A DNA stretch of 64,000 nt, taken from positions 62,001 through 126,000 of the forward strand of contig CAIVJW010000132.1 in the NCBI GenBank assembly GCA_903906315.1, read 5' to 3'. The DNA comes from an uncultured delta proteobacterium (GTDB lineage: Bacteria; Myxococcota_A; Polyangia; Polyangiales; Polyangiaceae). A program made the translations under genes and the position numbers. This document shows, piece after piece, positions 46,866 through 59,240 of the stretch. The notes below the pieces were generated by a model. It was not told where the DNA came from and ran no database searches. It saw nothing but the letters and a program-made list of their open reading frames with translations. Positions within the stretch are counted from its first letter, which is position 1. Each line of letters starts with the position of its first letter.

Positions 46866-48134
46866 GTGTCCGAATCGATGGCGCCACCCCCGTCGCGCAC
46901 CGCTGGTTCGGGGCGCGGTGTGCGTGACGACGCGCTGCCCTCGGCGATCGGCCGCTACGAGGTCCGGCGGCGGCTCGGCGAGGGCGCGATGGGGCGCGTG
47001 CTGCTCGCGCACGACCCGATCCTCGATCGCGACGTCGCGGTGAAGCACCTGCGCGACGACCTCCGGATCCCCCGCGACGTGCGCGATGGGCTCGTCGTGC
47101 GGATGCGTCACGAGGCGCGCGCCGCCGCTCGCGTCGCGCACCCGAACCTGGTCACGCTCCACGACATGGGTGAGGACCCCGAGGTGGGGCTCTTCCTCGT
47201 GTTCGAGTACGTGCCGGGGCCGACCTTGAAACAGCGACTCGACGACGGGCCCCTCCCGGCGGACGAAATCGCGGTCATGGCGCGCGAGCTCGGTGAGGCC
47301 CTCTCGTGCGCGCACGAGGCAGGCGTCCTGCACCGAGACATCAAGCCGGACAACATCATCCTCTCCCGGTGGGGCGCGAAAATCGCCGATTTTGGCATCG
47401 CGCGCGTGCCCGACTCCACGCTGACGCACGTCGGCGGCGTCCTCGGCACCCCGGCGTACAGCGCGCCGGAGACCTTTCGCACGAGCACGTTCTCCGCGCA
47501 GAGCGACCAATTCTCGCTCGCCGCGTCGATCTACGAGGCGCTCTCGGGGCAGCGCGCGTTCCCGGGCGACGACTCGGTCTCCGTGACCTCTCGCATCGCG
47601 AACGACCCGCCTGCGCTCGTCGCGTCGAGCCTGGGGCTGTCGCACGTCGTGGACGACGTGCTCGGGCGCGCGATGGCGAAGGACCCGGCCGCGCGCTTCC
47701 CGAGCTGCGAGGCGTTCGGGGGCGCGCTCGCGGCGTCGCTCGGGGGGCGCGAGGCGCTCGGGGACTTGGCGCGATCGGCCGGATCTTTCGGCTCCGCCGG
47801 AGCGACCGCCGCGACCGAGCGGAGGACGGGGCAGATCTTGCTGGGTGCGGCCGTCATCGCCGTCACGGCCGCGCTCATCGCGCGGACGGCGACGCGGTCG
47901 GTGGAGGCGCCGACCGAGGCCGCGGCTCCGGTGGCGACCGTCGGGTTCTCCGCGCTGCCGCCGCCGTCGGCGTCCGCTCACCGCCGACCCCCGGCGCCCC
48001 GGCAGCGGGCGCCGCGCGCGCCGGCGAGCACCGAGCCGATCGGCGCCGCTTCTGCCCGCGTCGATCCGGCCGACGCGGGCGCCCCCGCTGCCTCGGCCTC
48101 GGCGTCCTCCACCGCCACGGGCGGCGCGCCGTAG
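46866..48134 (+). CDS. Membrane Ser/Thr protein kinase (Hanks type)
   Basis: 422 residues from a GTG. The kinase domain spans about 30-290: glycine loop LGEGAMGRV, VAVKHL with the catalytic Lys, HRDIKPDN, ADFGI and TPAYSAPE. All active-site residues are present. One membrane helix (about 320-342, QILLGAAVIAVTAALIA) leads to a short Pro/Ala/Ser-rich external tail of about 80 residues with no sensor domain visible. It could act with the PP2C phosphatase and the FHA activator encoded nearby. It is followed by the MopE-like gene on the same strand. Confidence 0.88.
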   Translation: MSESMAPPPSRTAGSGRGVRDDALPSAIGRYEVRRRLGEGAMGRVLLAHDPILDRDVAVKHLRDDLRIPRDVRDGLVVRMRHEARAAARVAHPNLVTLHDMGEDPEVGLFLVFEYVPGPTLKQRLDDGPLPADEIAVMARELGEALSCAHEAGVLHRDIKPDNIILSRWGAKIADFGIARVPDSTLTHVGGVLGTPAYSAPETFRTSTFSAQSDQFSLAASIYEALSGQRAFPGDDSVSVTSRIANDPPALVASSLGLSHVVDDVLGRAMAKDPAARFPSCEAFGGALAASLGGREALGDLARSAGSFGSAGATAATERRTGQILLGAAVIAVTAALIARTATRSVEAPTEAAAPVATVGFSALPPPSASAHRRPPAPRQRAPRAPASTEPIGAASARVDPADAGAPAASASASSTATGGAP

Positions 48135-49725: not shown

Positions 49726-50703
49726 ATGACCACACGACCGCCGAGCGACGAGCTCCACCTTGAGCTCTACCGGAAGATGCAGCTCGTCCGCCGCTTCGAG
49801 GAGGAAGCGGCCCGCGCGTACGCGCAGGGGAAGATCGGCGGCTTCTTGCACCTCTACATCGGGCAGGAGGCGATCGCGGTCGGCGTCTCCGCTGCGCTTC
49901 GCGCCGACGACTACGCGATCACCACGTACCGCGACCACGGCCTCGCGCTCGCGCGCGGCACCTCGTTGCGCGCGGCGATGGCCGAGCTCCACGGCAAGGT
50001 CACGGGCTGCTCCAAGGGCCTCGGCGGGTCGATGCACTTCTTCGACGTCGAGCACGGCATGCTCGGCGGCTACGGCATCGTCGGCGGGCACATCCCGATC
50101 GCCGCAGGCACCGCCTTCGCGTCGAAGTACCGCGGTGAGGACCGCGTCACCGTCTGCTTCATGGGCGAGGGAGCGGTCAGCATCGGCGATTTCCACGAGG
50201 GCCTTTCCCTCGCCGCGCTGTGGAAGCTGCCGATCGTCTTCATTTGCGAGAACAACGAGTACTCCATGGGGACACCCCTCTCGCGCGAGCTCAGCGTCGA
50301 GGACGTCTCGACCAAGGCCCTCGCGTACGGAATGGCGCGCGACCGCTTCCACTGCGAGCACGTGCTCGAGGTGCGCGAGCGCGTGGCTGAGGCCATCGAG
50401 CGCGCCCGCCTCCACTCCGAGCCGACCCTGGTGGAGATCCGCACCTATCGCTTCCGCGGCCACTCGATGAGCGATCCCGGCAAGTACCGGACGGCCGAGG
50501 AGGTCGAGGAGCGCAAGCAGCGCGATCCGCTGCCGCGATCGCGCGGCGAGCTGGAGGCACGGGGCTTCGGCGCTGCGCTTGCGGCCCTGGACGAGGCGGT
50601 CGAGGCCGAGGTCGCCGACGCGGTGCGCTTCGCCGAGGAGAGCCCCGAGCCGGGCCCCGAGCTGCTCGAGGCGACCACCTACTCGGGGCCTTTCGCGCGA
50701 TGA
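49726..50703 (+). CDS. pdhA: Pyruvate dehydrogenase E1 component, alpha subunit
   Basis: 325 residues. The thiamine diphosphate motif is GEGAVSIGDFHEG...ENN (about 145-180), with the usual second Asp of GDG replaced by Glu in the first position. LHLYIGQEA near the N-terminus and GGSMHFFD are typical of E1 alpha. RFRGHSMSDPGKYR (about 243-256) carries the phosphorylation-loop sequence. With E1 beta it decarboxylates pyruvate and passes the acetyl group to lipoyl-E2. The beta and E2 genes follow at 29- and 49-base spacing, forming one operon. No E3 gene is in the window. Confidence 0.92.
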   Translation: MTTRPPSDELHLELYRKMQLVRRFEEEAARAYAQGKIGGFLHLYIGQEAIAVGVSAALRADDYAITTYRDHGLALARGTSLRAAMAELHGKVTGCSKGLGGSMHFFDVEHGMLGGYGIVGGHIPIAAGTAFASKYRGEDRVTVCFMGEGAVSIGDFHEGLSLAALWKLPIVFICENNEYSMGTPLSRELSVEDVSTKALAYGMARDRFHCEHVLEVRERVAEAIERARLHSEPTLVEIRTYRFRGHSMSDPGKYRTAEEVEERKQRDPLPRSRGELEARGFGAALAALDEAVEAEVADAVRFAEESPEPGPELLEATTYSGPFAR

Positions 50704-50731
50704 GCGCCACACGTCGAGGGAGGCGCCCATC

Positions 50732-51715
50732 ATGAGCCAGCTCAGGTTCCGCGAGGCCGTCCGCGCCGCGATGATCGAGGAGATGGAGCGCGACGAGCGC
50801 GTCTACCTGATCGGCGAAGAGGTCGGCCACTATCAGGGCGCGTACAAGGTGTCCGAGGGCATGCTCGAGCGCTTCGGCGAACGCCGGGTCATCGACACGC
50901 CGATCACGGAGAGCGGCTTCACCGGCATCTCCATCGGCGCGGCGATCGTCGGGCTACGCCCCATCGTCGAGTACATGACGTGGAACTTCTCGGCCGTCGC
51001 CTTCGACCAGATCCTGAACAACGCCGCCAAGCTCCGCCAGATGTCGGGCGGCCAGCTCAGGGTGCCGATCGTCTTCCGCGCGCCGAATGGGTCGGCGCGG
51101 CAGGTCGGATCGCAGCACTCCCACGCGATGGAGCACTTCTACGCCCACATCCCCGGGCTCAAGGTGCTCGCCCCGGCGACGCCAGCGGACGCGAAGGGGC
51201 TCTTGAAGGCGGCGATTCGCGACGACGACCCGGTGCTCTTCATGGAGAGCGAGACGCTCTACGGGGTGAAGGGCGAGGTGCCCGACGACCCCGACTTCCT
51301 CGTGCCGATGGGCCAGGCAGCGATCGCGCGCGAGGGGCGCGACGTGACAATCGTGGCCTGGAGCCGCATGGTCCACGTCGCGCTCGAGGCCGCTGCGGTG
51401 CTCGCGCGCGAGGGCGTCGAGGCCGAGGTCATCGACCTCCGATCACTCCGCCCCCTCGACGAGACCACGATCGTCGCGAGCGTCCGCAAGACGCACCGCG
51501 CGGTCATCGCGTACGAGGGCTGGCCCTATGGCGGCGTAGGCGCCGAGATCGTCGACCGCATCCAGCGCCTCGCGTTCGACGACCTGGACGCGCCAGTGCT
51601 GCGTACTTCGTTCCTCGACGTGCCCATGCCGTACAACGCGCGCCTCGAGCAGCTCGTCGTTCCGCAGGCGTCCCGCATCGTCGAGCAGGTGCGCAAGGTG
51701 CTCTACCGCGCGTAG
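50732..51715 (+). CDS. pdhB: Pyruvate dehydrogenase E1 component, beta subunit
   Basis: 327 residues. The N-terminal LREAVRAAM-like block and YLIGEEVGHYQGAYKVSEGM are typical of transketolase-pyrimidine-domain E1 beta proteins. DTPITESGFTGISIGAA contains the Glu that activates the thiamine ring. SEGM...GERRVIDTP and the C-terminal transketolase domain (from about 195, EVIDLRSLRPLD) follow. It pairs with the alpha subunit encoded directly upstream. A GGGAGG site precedes the ATG. Branched-chain 2-oxoacid or acetoin dehydrogenase are related, but three tightly linked genes of this length most often serve pyruvate. Confidence 0.92.
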   Translation: MSQLRFREAVRAAMIEEMERDERVYLIGEEVGHYQGAYKVSEGMLERFGERRVIDTPITESGFTGISIGAAIVGLRPIVEYMTWNFSAVAFDQILNNAAKLRQMSGGQLRVPIVFRAPNGSARQVGSQHSHAMEHFYAHIPGLKVLAPATPADAKGLLKAAIRDDDPVLFMESETLYGVKGEVPDDPDFLVPMGQAAIAREGRDVTIVAWSRMVHVALEAAAVLAREGVEAEVIDLRSLRPLDETTIVASVRKTHRAVIAYEGWPYGGVGAEIVDRIQRLAFDDLDAPVLRTSFLDVPMPYNARLEQLVVPQASRIVEQVRKVLYRA

Positions 51716-51763
51716 CCGCCGCGCACGCGGTCCCACTCCCCCCTTCCGTCCGCGCGAGGCTCC

Positions 51764-53029
51764 ATGGCGAAGGTTCTCGAGATGCCCAAGCTGTCCCCCA
51801 CCATGGAGGAGGGACAGATCAGCCTCTGGCACATGAAGGAAGGCGATCCCGTCGGGGTCGACGATCTGCTCGCCGAGGTCGAGACCGACAAGGCGACGAT
51901 GGAGTACCGGTCGTTCGACAGGGGCACGCTCCTGCGGATCCTGGCGCCGGGGGGCTCCGTCGTGCGGCTCGGCCAGCCCGTCGCGGTGCTCGGCGCGCCG
52001 GGCGAGGACATCGCCGCGCTGCTCGCCTCGCTCCTGGGTTCCTCCCCCGTCGCGGCGGACGCCCTGCCCCTCGCTGCGGCGCACCCACCTTCGGTCGCCG
52101 ACGTTGTCGCGGCCCCCCCCGCCGGGCCCGCGGGCGACGAGCCGCCGACCGGCCGCGCCAAGGCCTCGCCGTACGTCCGCAAGCTCGCCCGCGAGCGCGG
52201 CCTCGACCTCGGGCTCGTGTCCGGCTCCGGCCCCGGAGGGCGCATCGTCGCGCGGGATGTGGAGGGCCTCCCCGAGGCCGTGCCCGCCCCTGCTCCGCGC
52301 CCCGAAAGCGGGGTGCTCGCCGCCCCGATCGCGCGCCCGCTCAGCATGATGCGCAAGGCGATCGCGCGTCGCCTCACCGAGTCGAAGCAGACCGTCCCGC
52401 ACTTCTACCTGACCATCGACGTCGACGCCGATCCGATCTGGTCGCTTCGCGAGCAGATCAACGCGGACCTCGCGGCCGCCGCGCACGCCGACGCGCCCGT
52501 GATCAAGGTCAGCCTGAACGATCTGCTCGTGAAGGCCTCCGCGATCGCCCTGGCGCGCGTTCCCGAGTGCAACGCCGAGTTCACCCCGGAGGCGATCCTC
52601 ATCCACCGGCGCGTCGACATCTCCGTCGCCGTCGCCGTGAGCGAGGGCCTCCTCACGCCGGTCGTCCGCGACGCCGATCGCAAGAGCGTGATGGCCATCG
52701 CCGCCGAGATTCGCGAGCTCTCCTCCCGCGCCAAGGCCAGGAAGCTCGCGCCATCCGAGATGGCGAACGGCACGTTCTCCATCTCCAACCTGGGCATGTA
52801 CGGCATCGACGAGTTCGCCGCCGTCATCAACCCGCCCGAGGGGGCCATCCTCGCCGTCGGCCAGGTGCGTCGCGAGCCCGTCCTCCGCGGCGACGCCATC
52901 GTCCCGGGCCGCCGTCTCAAGCTGACGCTTTCGTGCGATCACCGCGTCGTCGACGGCGCGGTGGGCGCGGAGTTCCTCCGGGCGCTGCGCGCGCTGGTCG
53001 AGCACCCGACCCGGATCCTGCTGGCGTAG
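51764..53029 (+). CDS. pdhC: Dihydrolipoamide acetyltransferase (E2)
   Basis: 421 residues. One lipoyl domain (about 1-80) has the modified lysine in EVETDKATMEYRS. An Ala/Pro linker follows, then an E3/E1-binding domain (about 125-165, ASPYVRKLARERGLDLG). The catalytic acyltransferase domain (about 185-420) has the active-site SCDHRVVDGAVG near its end. Such a single-lipoyl E2 forms the core of the pyruvate dehydrogenase complex. It completes the operon with pdhA and pdhB. Confidence 0.93.
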   Translation: MAKVLEMPKLSPTMEEGQISLWHMKEGDPVGVDDLLAEVETDKATMEYRSFDRGTLLRILAPGGSVVRLGQPVAVLGAPGEDIAALLASLLGSSPVAADALPLAAAHPPSVADVVAAPPAGPAGDEPPTGRAKASPYVRKLARERGLDLGLVSGSGPGGRIVARDVEGLPEAVPAPAPRPESGVLAAPIARPLSMMRKAIARRLTESKQTVPHFYLTIDVDADPIWSLREQINADLAAAAHADAPVIKVSLNDLLVKASAIALARVPECNAEFTPEAILIHRRVDISVAVAVSEGLLTPVVRDADRKSVMAIAAEIRELSSRAKARKLAPSEMANGTFSISNLGMYGIDEFAAVINPPEGAILAVGQVRREPVLRGDAIVPGRRLKLTLSCDHRVVDGAVGAEFLRALRALVEHPTRILLA

Positions 53030-53077: not shown

Positions 53078-54010
53078 GTGCGGTTTCGCGGCCTCCTGGC
53101 GACCCTCGTCGGCTTCGCCATCCCCCTCGCCTCGCTCGCCGCAGACGCCGGCGGGCCGCGCCATGGCCACCAGCCCAAGGCGCACGCCTCGCTGCCCGTC
53201 GCGCGATCGAGCGAGGCTCAGCCCGCCGTCGCCTTGGCCGCCCCCGCGCCGGACCGCATCCTCCTGCGAGGCGGGACGTTCGCGATGGGCGCCACCGAAG
53301 CGGACGTCGCGGACGCGCTCGCGCTCTGCCGGCGCGAGCCCGCGGCTGACGACTACTGCGCCGAGGAGCTCTTCTCGAGCGAGCTACCCGCCCACGACGT
53401 CGAGCTCTCGGACGTCTGGGTCGACACCCACGAGGTGACCGTCGACCGCTACCGTCGCTGCGTCGCCGCCGGCCGCTGCGCCGAGCCTCCCCTGGCCGAA
53501 GGGGCCGCGCGCTTCGACCGCCCGAGCCTGCCGGTCACGCTCGTGTCCTGGTCCGACGCGACGGCGTTCTGCGCGTTCGACGGCGGGCGCCTCCCGACCG
53601 AGGCCGAGTGGGAGCGCGCCGCGCGCGGGCTCGTCGGCCGCACCTACCCGTGGGGCCGCGTCTACAACCCCTTTCTCGCCAATCACGGCAAGCTCGATTG
53701 GGACGAGCTCGACGACGGCGACGGCTTCCTCGAGCTCGCGCCCGTCGGCTCGTACCCCGACGGCCGCACGCCGGACGGCCTCGCGGACCTCGCCGGCAAC
53801 GTCGAGGAGTGGGTCGCCGACTGGTACGCCCCCGAATATCCGCCTGCCAGCGCGCGAAACCCGCGCGGACCGGACTCCGGCGACGAGCGCACGCTGCGCG
53901 GCGGCAGCTACTTCCACGCGCGCCCCTGGATGCGGGCGACCGCGCGGCTCCACGACCTCGCGGGCTCGCGCCGCGCGTGGCGAGGCTTCCGCTGCGCGCG
54001 CGACCCGTGA
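53078..54010 (+). CDS. SUMF1/FGE-like exported protein, catalytic Cys absent
   Basis: 310 residues from a GTG. The signal peptide ends near SLAADA. The SUMF1-like domain starts at about residue 60: ILLRGGTFAMG, THEVTVDRYRRC, GGRLPTEAEWERAARG, YPWG, LADLAGNVEEWV and GGSYFHARPW...RGFRCA. These are the core marks of the FGE/EgtB/PvdO fold. In true formylglycine-generating enzymes two Cys lie just after GGS; here those positions are His and Met. It therefore probably serves as a ligand-binding or accessory protein. It is less Cys-rich than the two paralogues at 24-26 kb. It follows the PDH operon and lies 55 bases ahead of the phosphoesterase gene. Confidence 0.82.
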   Translation: MRFRGLLATLVGFAIPLASLAADAGGPRHGHQPKAHASLPVARSSEAQPAVALAAPAPDRILLRGGTFAMGATEADVADALALCRREPAADDYCAEELFSSELPAHDVELSDVWVDTHEVTVDRYRRCVAAGRCAEPPLAEGAARFDRPSLPVTLVSWSDATAFCAFDGGRLPTEAEWERAARGLVGRTYPWGRVYNPFLANHGKLDWDELDDGDGFLELAPVGSYPDGRTPDGLADLAGNVEEWVADWYAPEYPPASARNPRGPDSGDERTLRGGSYFHARPWMRATARLHDLAGSRRAWRGFRCARDP

Positions 54011-56436: not shown

Positions 56437-58575
56437 ATGTTCTCGGTCATCATCAGCGAGAAGGGCGGCGCCGAGCGCCGTGAGGCGTTCGACCGGACCG
56501 AGATCAACGTCGGCCGTGTGCAGGGCAACGACCTGATGTTGCCGAAGGGCAACGTTTCAAAGCGCCACGCGCGCCTGCTCTTCCGTGACGGCCGGTTCAT
56601 CGTCACCGACCTGAAGAGCACCAACGGCACCTACGTCAACGGCCGCAAGATCGTGCAGGCCACGATCGTTCGCGAGGGCGACAAGATCTACATCGGCGAC
56701 TTCATCCTGCGCATCGAGACAGGCGCCGCCGTGCAGAGCTCGGGCGCTTCCGCCGTCGTCGACGCGCAGCTCGAGGTGCCGTCCGAGCCCACGTCGGGCG
56801 AGACCTCCGCGCCCCTCCGCCTCGTCGCGGTCGCACCGCCCCGCCCGGCCTCGGCCGAGGACCCGGTCGGTTTCCCCCTGCGCGACGGTGGCGAGGCGGC
56901 GTCGTTCGTCGTGCCTGCCCCGCCGCGGATCCCTATCGTCCCTCCGCGCGCCGATCCGCGCCCGGTGCCGGCGCCGGGGCCGCCGTCTTCGCCCGCCGAC
57001 CGGCGACCGCCGCTCCCGACGAGCCCGGAGGGGCGTCCGTCCGTGCCGATCCTCTCGGTGACGGCCAAGAGCGCGGGCATCGGCGGATCGCTTCCCCCCG
57101 TCGTCCCGATGCCGCCCGGGCGCACCTTGCCTGCCGGCACCGGCTCCGTGCCGATGCCGACGATGGCCTCGGTCGGGTCCAGCTCCTCGTTGGCGCCGTC
57201 GTCCGCGACGCTGGCGCCGCCCACGCCGCCCGTGGCGACCCCGACGGCGATGCCTCCGCGCAAGGCGGCGGTCGCGGAGCCGACCCAGCGGACGCGCGAG
57301 CCCGCCCTGGCGGCTGCGCATCGCGCGGCCCTCGCGACCCTCGTCCAGTATGTCGGGGACGAGTTCGACGTGGCGGCGCTGGAGACGGGCGAGCCCGTCG
57401 ACGAGGCCACCTCGCAGCGCGTGGCGCGCGTGGTCGGCGAACGCCTCGCCGCGATGCGCGTCGCCGGTGAGGTCCCGGCAGACGTCGACGGCGAAGCGCT
57501 CGCCGTCGAGGCGGCGCGTGAGCTGTGCGACCTTGGCCCGCTCGGCCCGCTCCTCGCCGACGAGGACGTGAGCGAGGTTCAGGTCATTCGCCACGACTTC
57601 GTCGTCGCCATGCGCGCTCGTCGACACGTGGTGGGCGAGGTCGCGTTCACCAGCGAGGCGGCCCTCGTCCGCGCGCTCCGCCGGCTCTGCTGGAGCGCAG
57701 GGGCGCCGCTCGGTCAGGCGGAGCGCTACGTCGAGCGTCGCATGCGGGACGGCGGTCGCCTCTTCGCCGTGATGCCCGCGGCGCCCGACCAGGGGCACGC
57801 CCTCGTGCTCCGCAAGCCTCAACGCGCGGATCTCACGCTCGAGGACCTCGTGCGCAGCGGGACGATTTCCCGAGGGATGGCTGGCCTGCTCGCCCAGTGC
57901 GTGATCGCCCGCGCCAACATCCTCGTCACGGGCTCGGTCGGCGCCGGGACGACGTCGCTGCTCGGCGCGCTTGCCGGCGCCGGGGGCACCGACGACCGCG
58001 TGCTGGTGCTTCAGGAGGCCGATGAGATCATCTTCTCGCAGCCGCACACCGTCTCGCTCCTGCTCGGCGGCGTGCCGGTCGAGGACGCGCTCGCCGTGCG
58101 CGCCGCCACGCGCCTCCACCCCGACCGCCTCGTGATCGGCGCGTTCGCGGGGCACGTCGCGGCGGAGGTCGTCGATGCGATCGGCGACGGCGTGGACGGT
58201 GTGCTCGCCGCGGCTCGATCGCCGAACCTACGCCAGGCCGTCGCCCGACTGCCGGCAGACCTCGCGGCGACGCGCCCGGGCGTCACGCCGGAGGTCGCGC
58301 GCGAGTGGCTCGCGTCCGCCTTCGACCTGGCGATCGAGATTGCGCGGCTTCGCGATGGACGACATCGGGTCCTGCGCATCGCGGAGCTCGCGGTCGAGGG
58401 CAACGCGATCGCCCTGCGCGATGTGTTCACGTTCGCCGTCGAGCGCACGGCCGCGGGGGGCGCGCTCGAGGGCACGTTCCAGCCCACCGGCCACGTCCCG
58501 AGGGTCGTGGAGGACCTCGCCGCGCGCGGCGTCGCCGTCGACTCGGCGGTCTTCAAGCGGCACGTCCTTCGCTGA
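56437..58575 (+). CDS. FHA domain fused to a CpaF/TadA-like secretion ATPase with a degenerate active site
   Basis: 712 residues from the ATG at 56437 (a GTG codon lies immediately before). An FHA domain (about 1-95) has INVGRVQGNDL, SKRHARL and DLKSTNGTYVNG. A long Pro-rich linker (about 105-285) follows. The C-terminal ~400 residues match CpaF/TadA-type GspE-like ATPases, including DLGPLGPLLADEDVSEVQV. The Walker A loop is GSVGAGTTS (499-507), so the essential Lys is Thr505. The usual GExRG motif is GAFAG (568-572), with Glu and Arg both Ala. The His box reads AARSPN. ATP hydrolysis is therefore unlikely. No Tad/Flp pilus genes are in the window. It may be a regulatory or scaffold pseudoenzyme controlled by phosphothreonine. 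Confidence 0.85.
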   Translation: MFSVIISEKGGAERREAFDRTEINVGRVQGNDLMLPKGNVSKRHARLLFRDGRFIVTDLKSTNGTYVNGRKIVQATIVREGDKIYIGDFILRIETGAAVQSSGASAVVDAQLEVPSEPTSGETSAPLRLVAVAPPRPASAEDPVGFPLRDGGEAASFVVPAPPRIPIVPPRADPRPVPAPGPPSSPADRRPPLPTSPEGRPSVPILSVTAKSAGIGGSLPPVVPMPPGRTLPAGTGSVPMPTMASVGSSSSLAPSSATLAPPTPPVATPTAMPPRKAAVAEPTQRTREPALAAAHRAALATLVQYVGDEFDVAALETGEPVDEATSQRVARVVGERLAAMRVAGEVPADVDGEALAVEAARELCDLGPLGPLLADEDVSEVQVIRHDFVVAMRARRHVVGEVAFTSEAALVRALRRLCWSAGAPLGQAERYVERRMRDGGRLFAVMPAAPDQGHALVLRKPQRADLTLEDLVRSGTISRGMAGLLAQCVIARANILVTGSVGAGTTSLLGALAGAGGTDDRVLVLQEADEIIFSQPHTVSLLLGGVPVEDALAVRAATRLHPDRLVIGAFAGHVAAEVVDAIGDGVDGVLAAARSPNLRQAVARLPADLAATRPGVTPEVAREWLASAFDLAIEIARLRDGRHRVLRIAELAVEGNAIALRDVFTFAVERTAAGGALEGTFQPTGHVPRVVEDLAARGVAVDSAVFKRHVLR

Positions 58576-58730: not shown

Positions 58731-59240
58731 ATGTCGATCCTAACGATTCTCCACTATCCCGACCCTCGCCTGCGCCAGAAGGGCGAGCCCGTCGTCGCGT
58801 TCACTCCGGCGATCCAGCGTCTGATCGACGACATGGCCGAGACGATGTACGCGGCGCCGGGGGTCGGCCTCGCCGCGCCCCAGGTCGGCGCGCCCCACCG
58901 CATCTTCCTGGTCGACGTCGCCGCCGAGGACGAGCCGTCGAACCTGATCGCGTTCATCAACCCCGTCTTGACGCTGGGCGACGGCGAGGTGGTCGGGCCG
59001 GAGGGCTGCCTCTCGTTTCCGGGCGTGAACGAGGACCTCAAGCGGGCCGAGCACGTCCGCGTGCGCGCGGTCGACCGCGCCGGCAAGGCGTTCGAGATCG
59101 CCGCCGACGGGCTGCTCGCCGTCGCCATTCAGCACGAGAACGATCACCTCGACGGCGTGCTGATGATCGACCGCGTCGGCGTCCTCAAGAGGCGCATCAT
59201 CCAGCGCAAGATGCACAAGCGAGCCCTCGAGCTGGCCTGA
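58731..59240 (+). CDS. def: Peptide deformylase
   Basis: 169 residues with all three motifs: GVGLAAPQVG (motif 1), EGCLSFPG (motif 2, metal-binding Cys) and QHENDHLDG (motif 3, HEXXH). It removes the formyl group from the initiator methionine of new proteins. The ATG has an AGAGG site six bases upstream. It is convergent with ribD. The short C-terminal tail (RKMHKRALELA) is normal for type I enzymes. Confidence 0.95.
   Translation: MSILTILHYPDPRLRQKGEPVVAFTPAIQRLIDDMAETMYAAPGVGLAAPQVGAPHRIFLVDVAAEDEPSNLIAFINPVLTLGDGEVVGPEGCLSFPGVNEDLKRAEHVRVRAVDRAGKAFEIAADGLLAVAIQHENDHLDGVLMIDRVGVLKRRIIQRKMHKRALELA

Follow-up and report, generated by a model that had tools for sequence, protein, structure and literature searches.

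Organisation of the FHA-CpaF fusion locus

The DNA analysed here is a 64,000 nucleotide stretch (hereafter the window) of a contig from an uncultured member of the Polyangiaceae. Its forward strand carries a gene that starts at a GTG (56434) or an ATG (56437), stops at 58575 and encodes a product of 712–713 aa, as determined by ORF analysis. Pfam identified an FHA domain (8e-18) and a T2SSE domain (48.5 bits; cut-off 24.9) in this protein. The N-terminal FHA domain (56437..56724) is followed by a Pro/Ala-rich, probably disordered linker of approximately 190 residues (56725..57300), which leads into CpaF/TadA-like N-terminal and RecA-like domains (57283..58572) that are catalytically degenerate. 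The same domain order is found in class III CpaF proteins (FHA-IDR-3HB-NTD-CAD), which the available excerpts of the source treat as CpaF orthologues with no mention of a pseudo-enzyme branch (PMC12019362).

A peptide deformylase gene (58731..59240, forward strand) lies immediately downstream as a syntenic neighbour kept in Polyangiaceae, where the position of the fusion gene beside def, ribD, nrdR and fab genes is conserved; the deformylase is not thought to be part of the function of the fusion protein. Neither a secretin nor any other Kil gene was found beside the window gene, and no KilD-like tandem-FHA gene adjoins it. Myxobacteria are rich in Ser/Thr kinases, and one Ser/Thr protein kinase gene is located approximately 8 kb upstream of the fusion gene (46866-48134). 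In Labilithrix-type relatives a kinase-FHA fusion gene is found approximately 8 kb upstream of the corresponding gene (e.g. L052:609-2417). We also noted genes for 2-oxoacid dehydrogenase E1 and E2 upstream in the window (49746-53029) and a weak similarity of the window FHA domain to OdhI, the actinobacterial FHA inhibitor of oxoglutarate dehydrogenase, a combination that is probably a coincidence. A protein with a formylglycine-generating-enzyme (SUMF1-like) domain is encoded at 53078-54010 and adjoins a metallophosphoesterase gene.

A predicted CpaF fold that has lost most of its catalytic residues

The initial annotation of this locus described an FHA-CpaF fusion that keeps the CpaF/TadA framework around a dead ATPase site. 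The framework was borne out by the open reading frame, the Pfam matches and the predicted fold: an AlphaFold2 model built with 35 homologues reached a pLDDT of 90.4 for the CpaF/TadA-like part, and its best match among solved structures was CpaF (Foldseek E 3.7e-31; VIA Z 33.9 to 8rjf_A over 409 residues). On this model, the window protein keeps an intact CpaF fold around a disabled catalytic centre. Alignment to Caulobacter CpaF (PDB 8rkd; E 6.5e-37) also agreed with each of the three motif readings on which the annotation was based. Walker A reads GSVGAGTTS in place of GGTGSGKTT (57931..57957; K287 corresponds to T506), the Walker B/GExRG motif reads GAFAG in place of GEVRG with both E357 and R359 replaced by Ala (58138..58152), and the His box reads AARSPN in place of TLHANS, with H382 replaced by R595 (58210..58227). 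Expressed in Caulobacter numbering, the substitutions are K287T, E357A, R359A, H382R and D208G, such that four of the five catalytic residues considered here (K287, E312, E357, R359 and H382; roles from PMC11300603 and PMC12019362) are lost. The alignments contained no alternative P-loop or GExRG motif elsewhere in the protein.

Two details go beyond the initial annotation. The Asp-box residue E312 and three arginine fingers (R217, R223 and R347) are retained in the window protein, thus some residual nucleotide contact is possible. In addition, the Central (pore) Loop is shortened (58054..58086) by deletion of residues E331-G334 (E-G-x-G), the EGSG motif of CpaF with which this loop contacts the pilus platform TadB/TadC (PMC11300603). 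The window protein scored 135 bits against TIGR03819 and intact relatives scored 333-345 bits, all below the cut-off of 373. As the single mutation K287A abolishes the ATPase activity of CpaF (PMC12019362), ATP hydrolysis is very likely to be absent from the window protein. The pseudo-ATPase reading is strongly supported by the absence of four of five catalytic residues, the sharing of this loss by relatives, the intact predicted fold and the purifying selection described below.

Catalytic erosion and constraint across Myxococcota

We collected 80 relatives from GTDB contigs and later fetched approximately 100 loci around the window-type FHA, with genome searches carried out separately using the CpaF part and the FHA domain. 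Among the 235 Myxococcota genomes sampled, the window-type FHA was present in 134; 17 of these genomes belong to the window's own family. At least one of the five catalytic residues was missing from 119 of 124 distinct FHA-CpaF fusions, a proportion that is not a census of the phylum because the loci were chosen by similarity to the window. All five residues were kept in only 5 of the 124, none or one was kept in 90, and the Walker lysine was present in 24. Position 331 of the Central Loop was a gap in 110 of the 119 non-intact members and Glu in all five intact ones. Sequencing error was rejected as the source of these losses since comparable losses are found again in more than 100 distinct relatives. 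We conclude that the FHA-pseudo-CpaF fusion is a conserved family across much of the myxobacterial phylum and not a one-off.

The initial annotation had suggested checking whether the same substitutions are conserved in orthologues. Loss of the catalytic residues does recur, but the P-loop sequences differ among relatives (GSVGAGTTS, GPMGSGHGS, GTRDAGTSW, GSSASASVG and many more) and do not represent one inherited substitution. Two half-way groups were identified: L053, L057, L066, L076 and L058 keep K, E/D and R and have lost the His, and L214-L217 and L220 keep K, E, R and H and have lost E312. Judging from the order of branches in the tree, where long-branch effects are possible, the erosion of catalysis looks repeated and parallel. 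Some members may not be dead, given the four residues kept by L214-L217 and L220.

We also considered short FHA-only ORFs as candidate stand-alone FHA proteins and rejected them, since those that we re-fetched end at contig ends within the repetitive linker and are assembly breaks. MAG contigs (L257, L258, L262 and others) often break off in the Pro-rich linker, and the truncated FHA-only ORFs at their ends would be mistaken for genes of stand-alone FHA proteins.

The FHA residues G26, R27, S41, H44, N63 and G64 (ATG numbering) are invariant or nearly so in the family, and the phospho-binding residues (GR, S, H, NG) are present in the window protein and invariant in 127 of 127 distinct members. 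This invariance of all binding residues supports the FHA domain as a putative working phosphothreonine reader. Estimates of dN/dS were 0-0.22 (mostly <0.1) for the FHA domain, 0.10-0.35 for the pseudo-ATPase part and 0.17-0.93 for the linker, the fastest-evolving part of the gene; these values indicate purifying selection on the pseudo-ATPase part. In pairwise comparisons, which are not independent of each other, the CpaF part was more conserved than the FHA domain in 10 of 10 intact pairs, and the FHA domain was more conserved than the CpaF part in 434 of 434 Polyangiaceae-type pseudo pairs (mean 84% versus 45%).

Relationship to Kil and Tad loci

A secretin gene was found in the fetched flank of all five fully catalytic members versus one of the 119 others (Fisher p 3e-8, relatedness ignored). 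Two loci, L049 and L082, each combine a secretin, an FHA-CpaF and a tandem-FHA gene in a cluster that resembles the secretin/KilF/KilD set of the Kil predation apparatus of M. xanthus, in which KilF (MXAN_3107) is an FHA-CpaF ATPase (PMC8460266). In a tree of FHA domains, those of the window protein and of almost all pseudo members grouped with the FHA domains of the Kil-like loci L049, L082 and L208. Outside that group fell L250 and L092, the intact FHA-CpaF from the Tad locus of this genome. Because the intact fusions all have a nearby secretin and the window FHA groups with Kil-like FHA domains, KilF, the Kil/Tad motor, is the most likely ancestor of the family; the comparison used the Kil-like loci L049, L082 and L208 in place of the KilF sequence itself, and long branches make this descent less than certain. 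The window protein resembles KilF in the fusion of FHA to CpaF, and a tandem-FHA gene follows the gene in most non-Polyangiaceae relatives as kilD follows kilF. In contrast to KilF, it lacks the ATPase site and the platform loop and is encoded outside a secretin/Tad cluster.

The genome from which the window derives contains one Tad locus on contig C406, with CpaB-like, secretin, intact FHA-CpaF, TadB and TadC genes; another CpaF is encoded on C450. Both a pseudo copy and an intact CpaF are likewise present in Minicystis and several Labilithrix-type genomes. In 12 other genomes, a CpaF profile search returned only the pseudo copy, followed by matches at the level of PilB/PilT/GspE, with no intact CpaF detected. 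These genomes are Sorangium So ce26, So ceGT47, So0157-2 (complete) and So0008-312, three Polyangium, one Byssovorax MAG, G005, G006, G015 and G016, and they include three complete Sorangium chromosomes. Scoring covered the 81 best candidates in the four Sorangium and in Polyangium G014/G020 and every candidate in the rest, thus it is unlikely but possible that a CpaF was missed in the former. An independent survey reported Tad genes as absent from Sorangium and Polyangium (PMC10196010). We also observed a tandem PilT fusion (G000:C277:7028-8986; L006/L009) with two complete PilT-like ATPase domains in one frame, approximately 730 aa from the likely start, and an intact P-loop in each domain.

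A tandem-FHA membrane protein as candidate partner

Most non-Polyangiaceae loci carry a two-FHA gene directly downstream of the fusion gene, and several of the tandem-FHA proteins that we aligned have an apparent membrane segment and then TPR-like repeats after the FHA domains. In Polyangiaceae the tandem-FHA gene lies apart from the fusion gene: one clear best match (141-187 bits) covering both FHA domains was obtained in 11 of the 13 genomes searched, and weaker matches were found in G005 and G067. In the window's genome this gene is located at C216:50659-51648. It lies near pilC/pilS in several Polyangiaceae, this genome included (G000:C216; L285:9672-11147), and genes for beta-lactamase-fold and GDSL lipase proteins are found alongside in several Polyangiaceae. 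We infer from this genomic association that the tandem-FHA membrane protein, identified in Polyangiaceae by the best full-length match, is probably the partner of the pseudo-CpaF.

Discussion

Work on known secretion and pilus ATPases treats them as motors. We consider the window protein to be a motor turned non-catalytic phospho-signalling scaffold of KilF descent, probably acting with the tandem-FHA membrane protein, and assign this reading a probability of approximately 0.6. It is probably a signalling part now, because the dead motor is conserved even in species without such a pilus. The pseudo-CpaF would no longer move pilins; instead, its CpaF-like part would serve as a structural scaffold, perhaps still ring-forming, that presents FHA domains on flexible linkers. 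Through these domains it may recognise phosphothreonine on a partner protein, most probably the tandem-FHA membrane protein with its single apparent span or a kinase that phosphorylates it, and the outcome would be a phosphorylation-switched signalling or assembly platform in place of a motor.

The window protein shares with Caulobacter CpaF/TadA (PDB 8rkd, 8rjf, 9e24) the whole fold, the arginine fingers and the Asp-box Glu, but it lacks the Walker Lys, the Walker B Glu/Arg, the His-box His and the Central Loop motif, and has an added FHA domain. It has in common with FHA adaptors (FhaB/FipA, OdhI, GltG, TagH) the FHA fold with intact phospho-binding residues; these adaptors have no CpaF part, and the window protein scores far under the cut-offs of those families.

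Several other explanations were weighed. A dead ring might act on the type IVa pilus or on type II secretion by docking to PilC/GspF or mixing with PilB/PilT, and both systems are present in this genome, with the tandem-FHA gene near pilC and pilS in several Polyangiaceae. We regard this as unlikely: the loop by which CpaF contacts its platform is missing, identity to PilB/PilT is only approximately 15%, and unrelated genes also occur in the pilC neighbourhood. Slightly less probable is a monomeric phosphopeptide adaptor in which only the FHA domain matters and the CpaF-like part serves as no more than a folded spacer. The identity of the FHA domain is indeed far above that of the rest of the protein, but a domain of approximately 410 residues that is found in nearly every member, is predicted to be well folded and is under purifying selection argues against a spacer.

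The initial annotation proposed a pseudo-ATPase that may cap or regulate an active CpaF hexamer made from another locus, with the FHA domain as a putative link to Thr phosphorylation by kinases of this genome, for which the Ser/Thr kinase gene upstream in the window is the one candidate noted. In this model a dead subunit would cap or join the hexamer and regulate Tad pili. Such a hexamer could be supplied by the intact FHA-CpaF encoded with secretin, TadB and TadC on C406 of this genome, and Minicystis and several Labilithrix-type genomes could combine the two proteins in the same way. As a general role this is contradicted by the 12 genomes with a pseudo copy and no detected intact CpaF, and Tad is reported absent in Sorangium and Polyangium (PMC10196010); with the platform-docking Central Loop also deleted, the cap is unsupported as a family role and we consider it improbable. 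Even less probable is that the protein remains an ATPase or nucleotide sensor through a non-canonical site. Retention of E312 and R217/R223/R347, and of the Walker lysine in some relatives, would fit such a site, but replacement of K287 alone is sufficient to abolish the ATPase activity of CpaF (PMC12019362) and the P-loops of relatives differ wildly, even losing residues. Finally, the loss of catalytic motifs might indicate a decaying pseudogene, which is refuted by the uninterrupted reading frame, the syntenic orthologues found across many genera, dN/dS values well below 1 and a nearly invariant FHA domain.

Our search of the open-licence literature found no description of an inactive CpaF or pseudo-secretion ATPase, which does not prove that none exists. 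We tentatively suggest, at somewhat less than even odds, that Myxococcota contain an undescribed phylum-wide module in which an ATPase-dead motor ring forms a phosphothreonine-reading scaffold with a tandem-FHA membrane protein and has outlived its pilus. If true, a conserved branch that combines repeated catalytic loss with a frozen phospho-reader would show clearly how a motor can be converted into a scaffold for signalling. Matches annotated as 'FHA-CpaF' or 'T2SS/T4SS ATPase' in Myxococcota are often no evidence for a Tad/Kil system, and annotators and surveys of predation genes should treat such matches in this phylum with caution.
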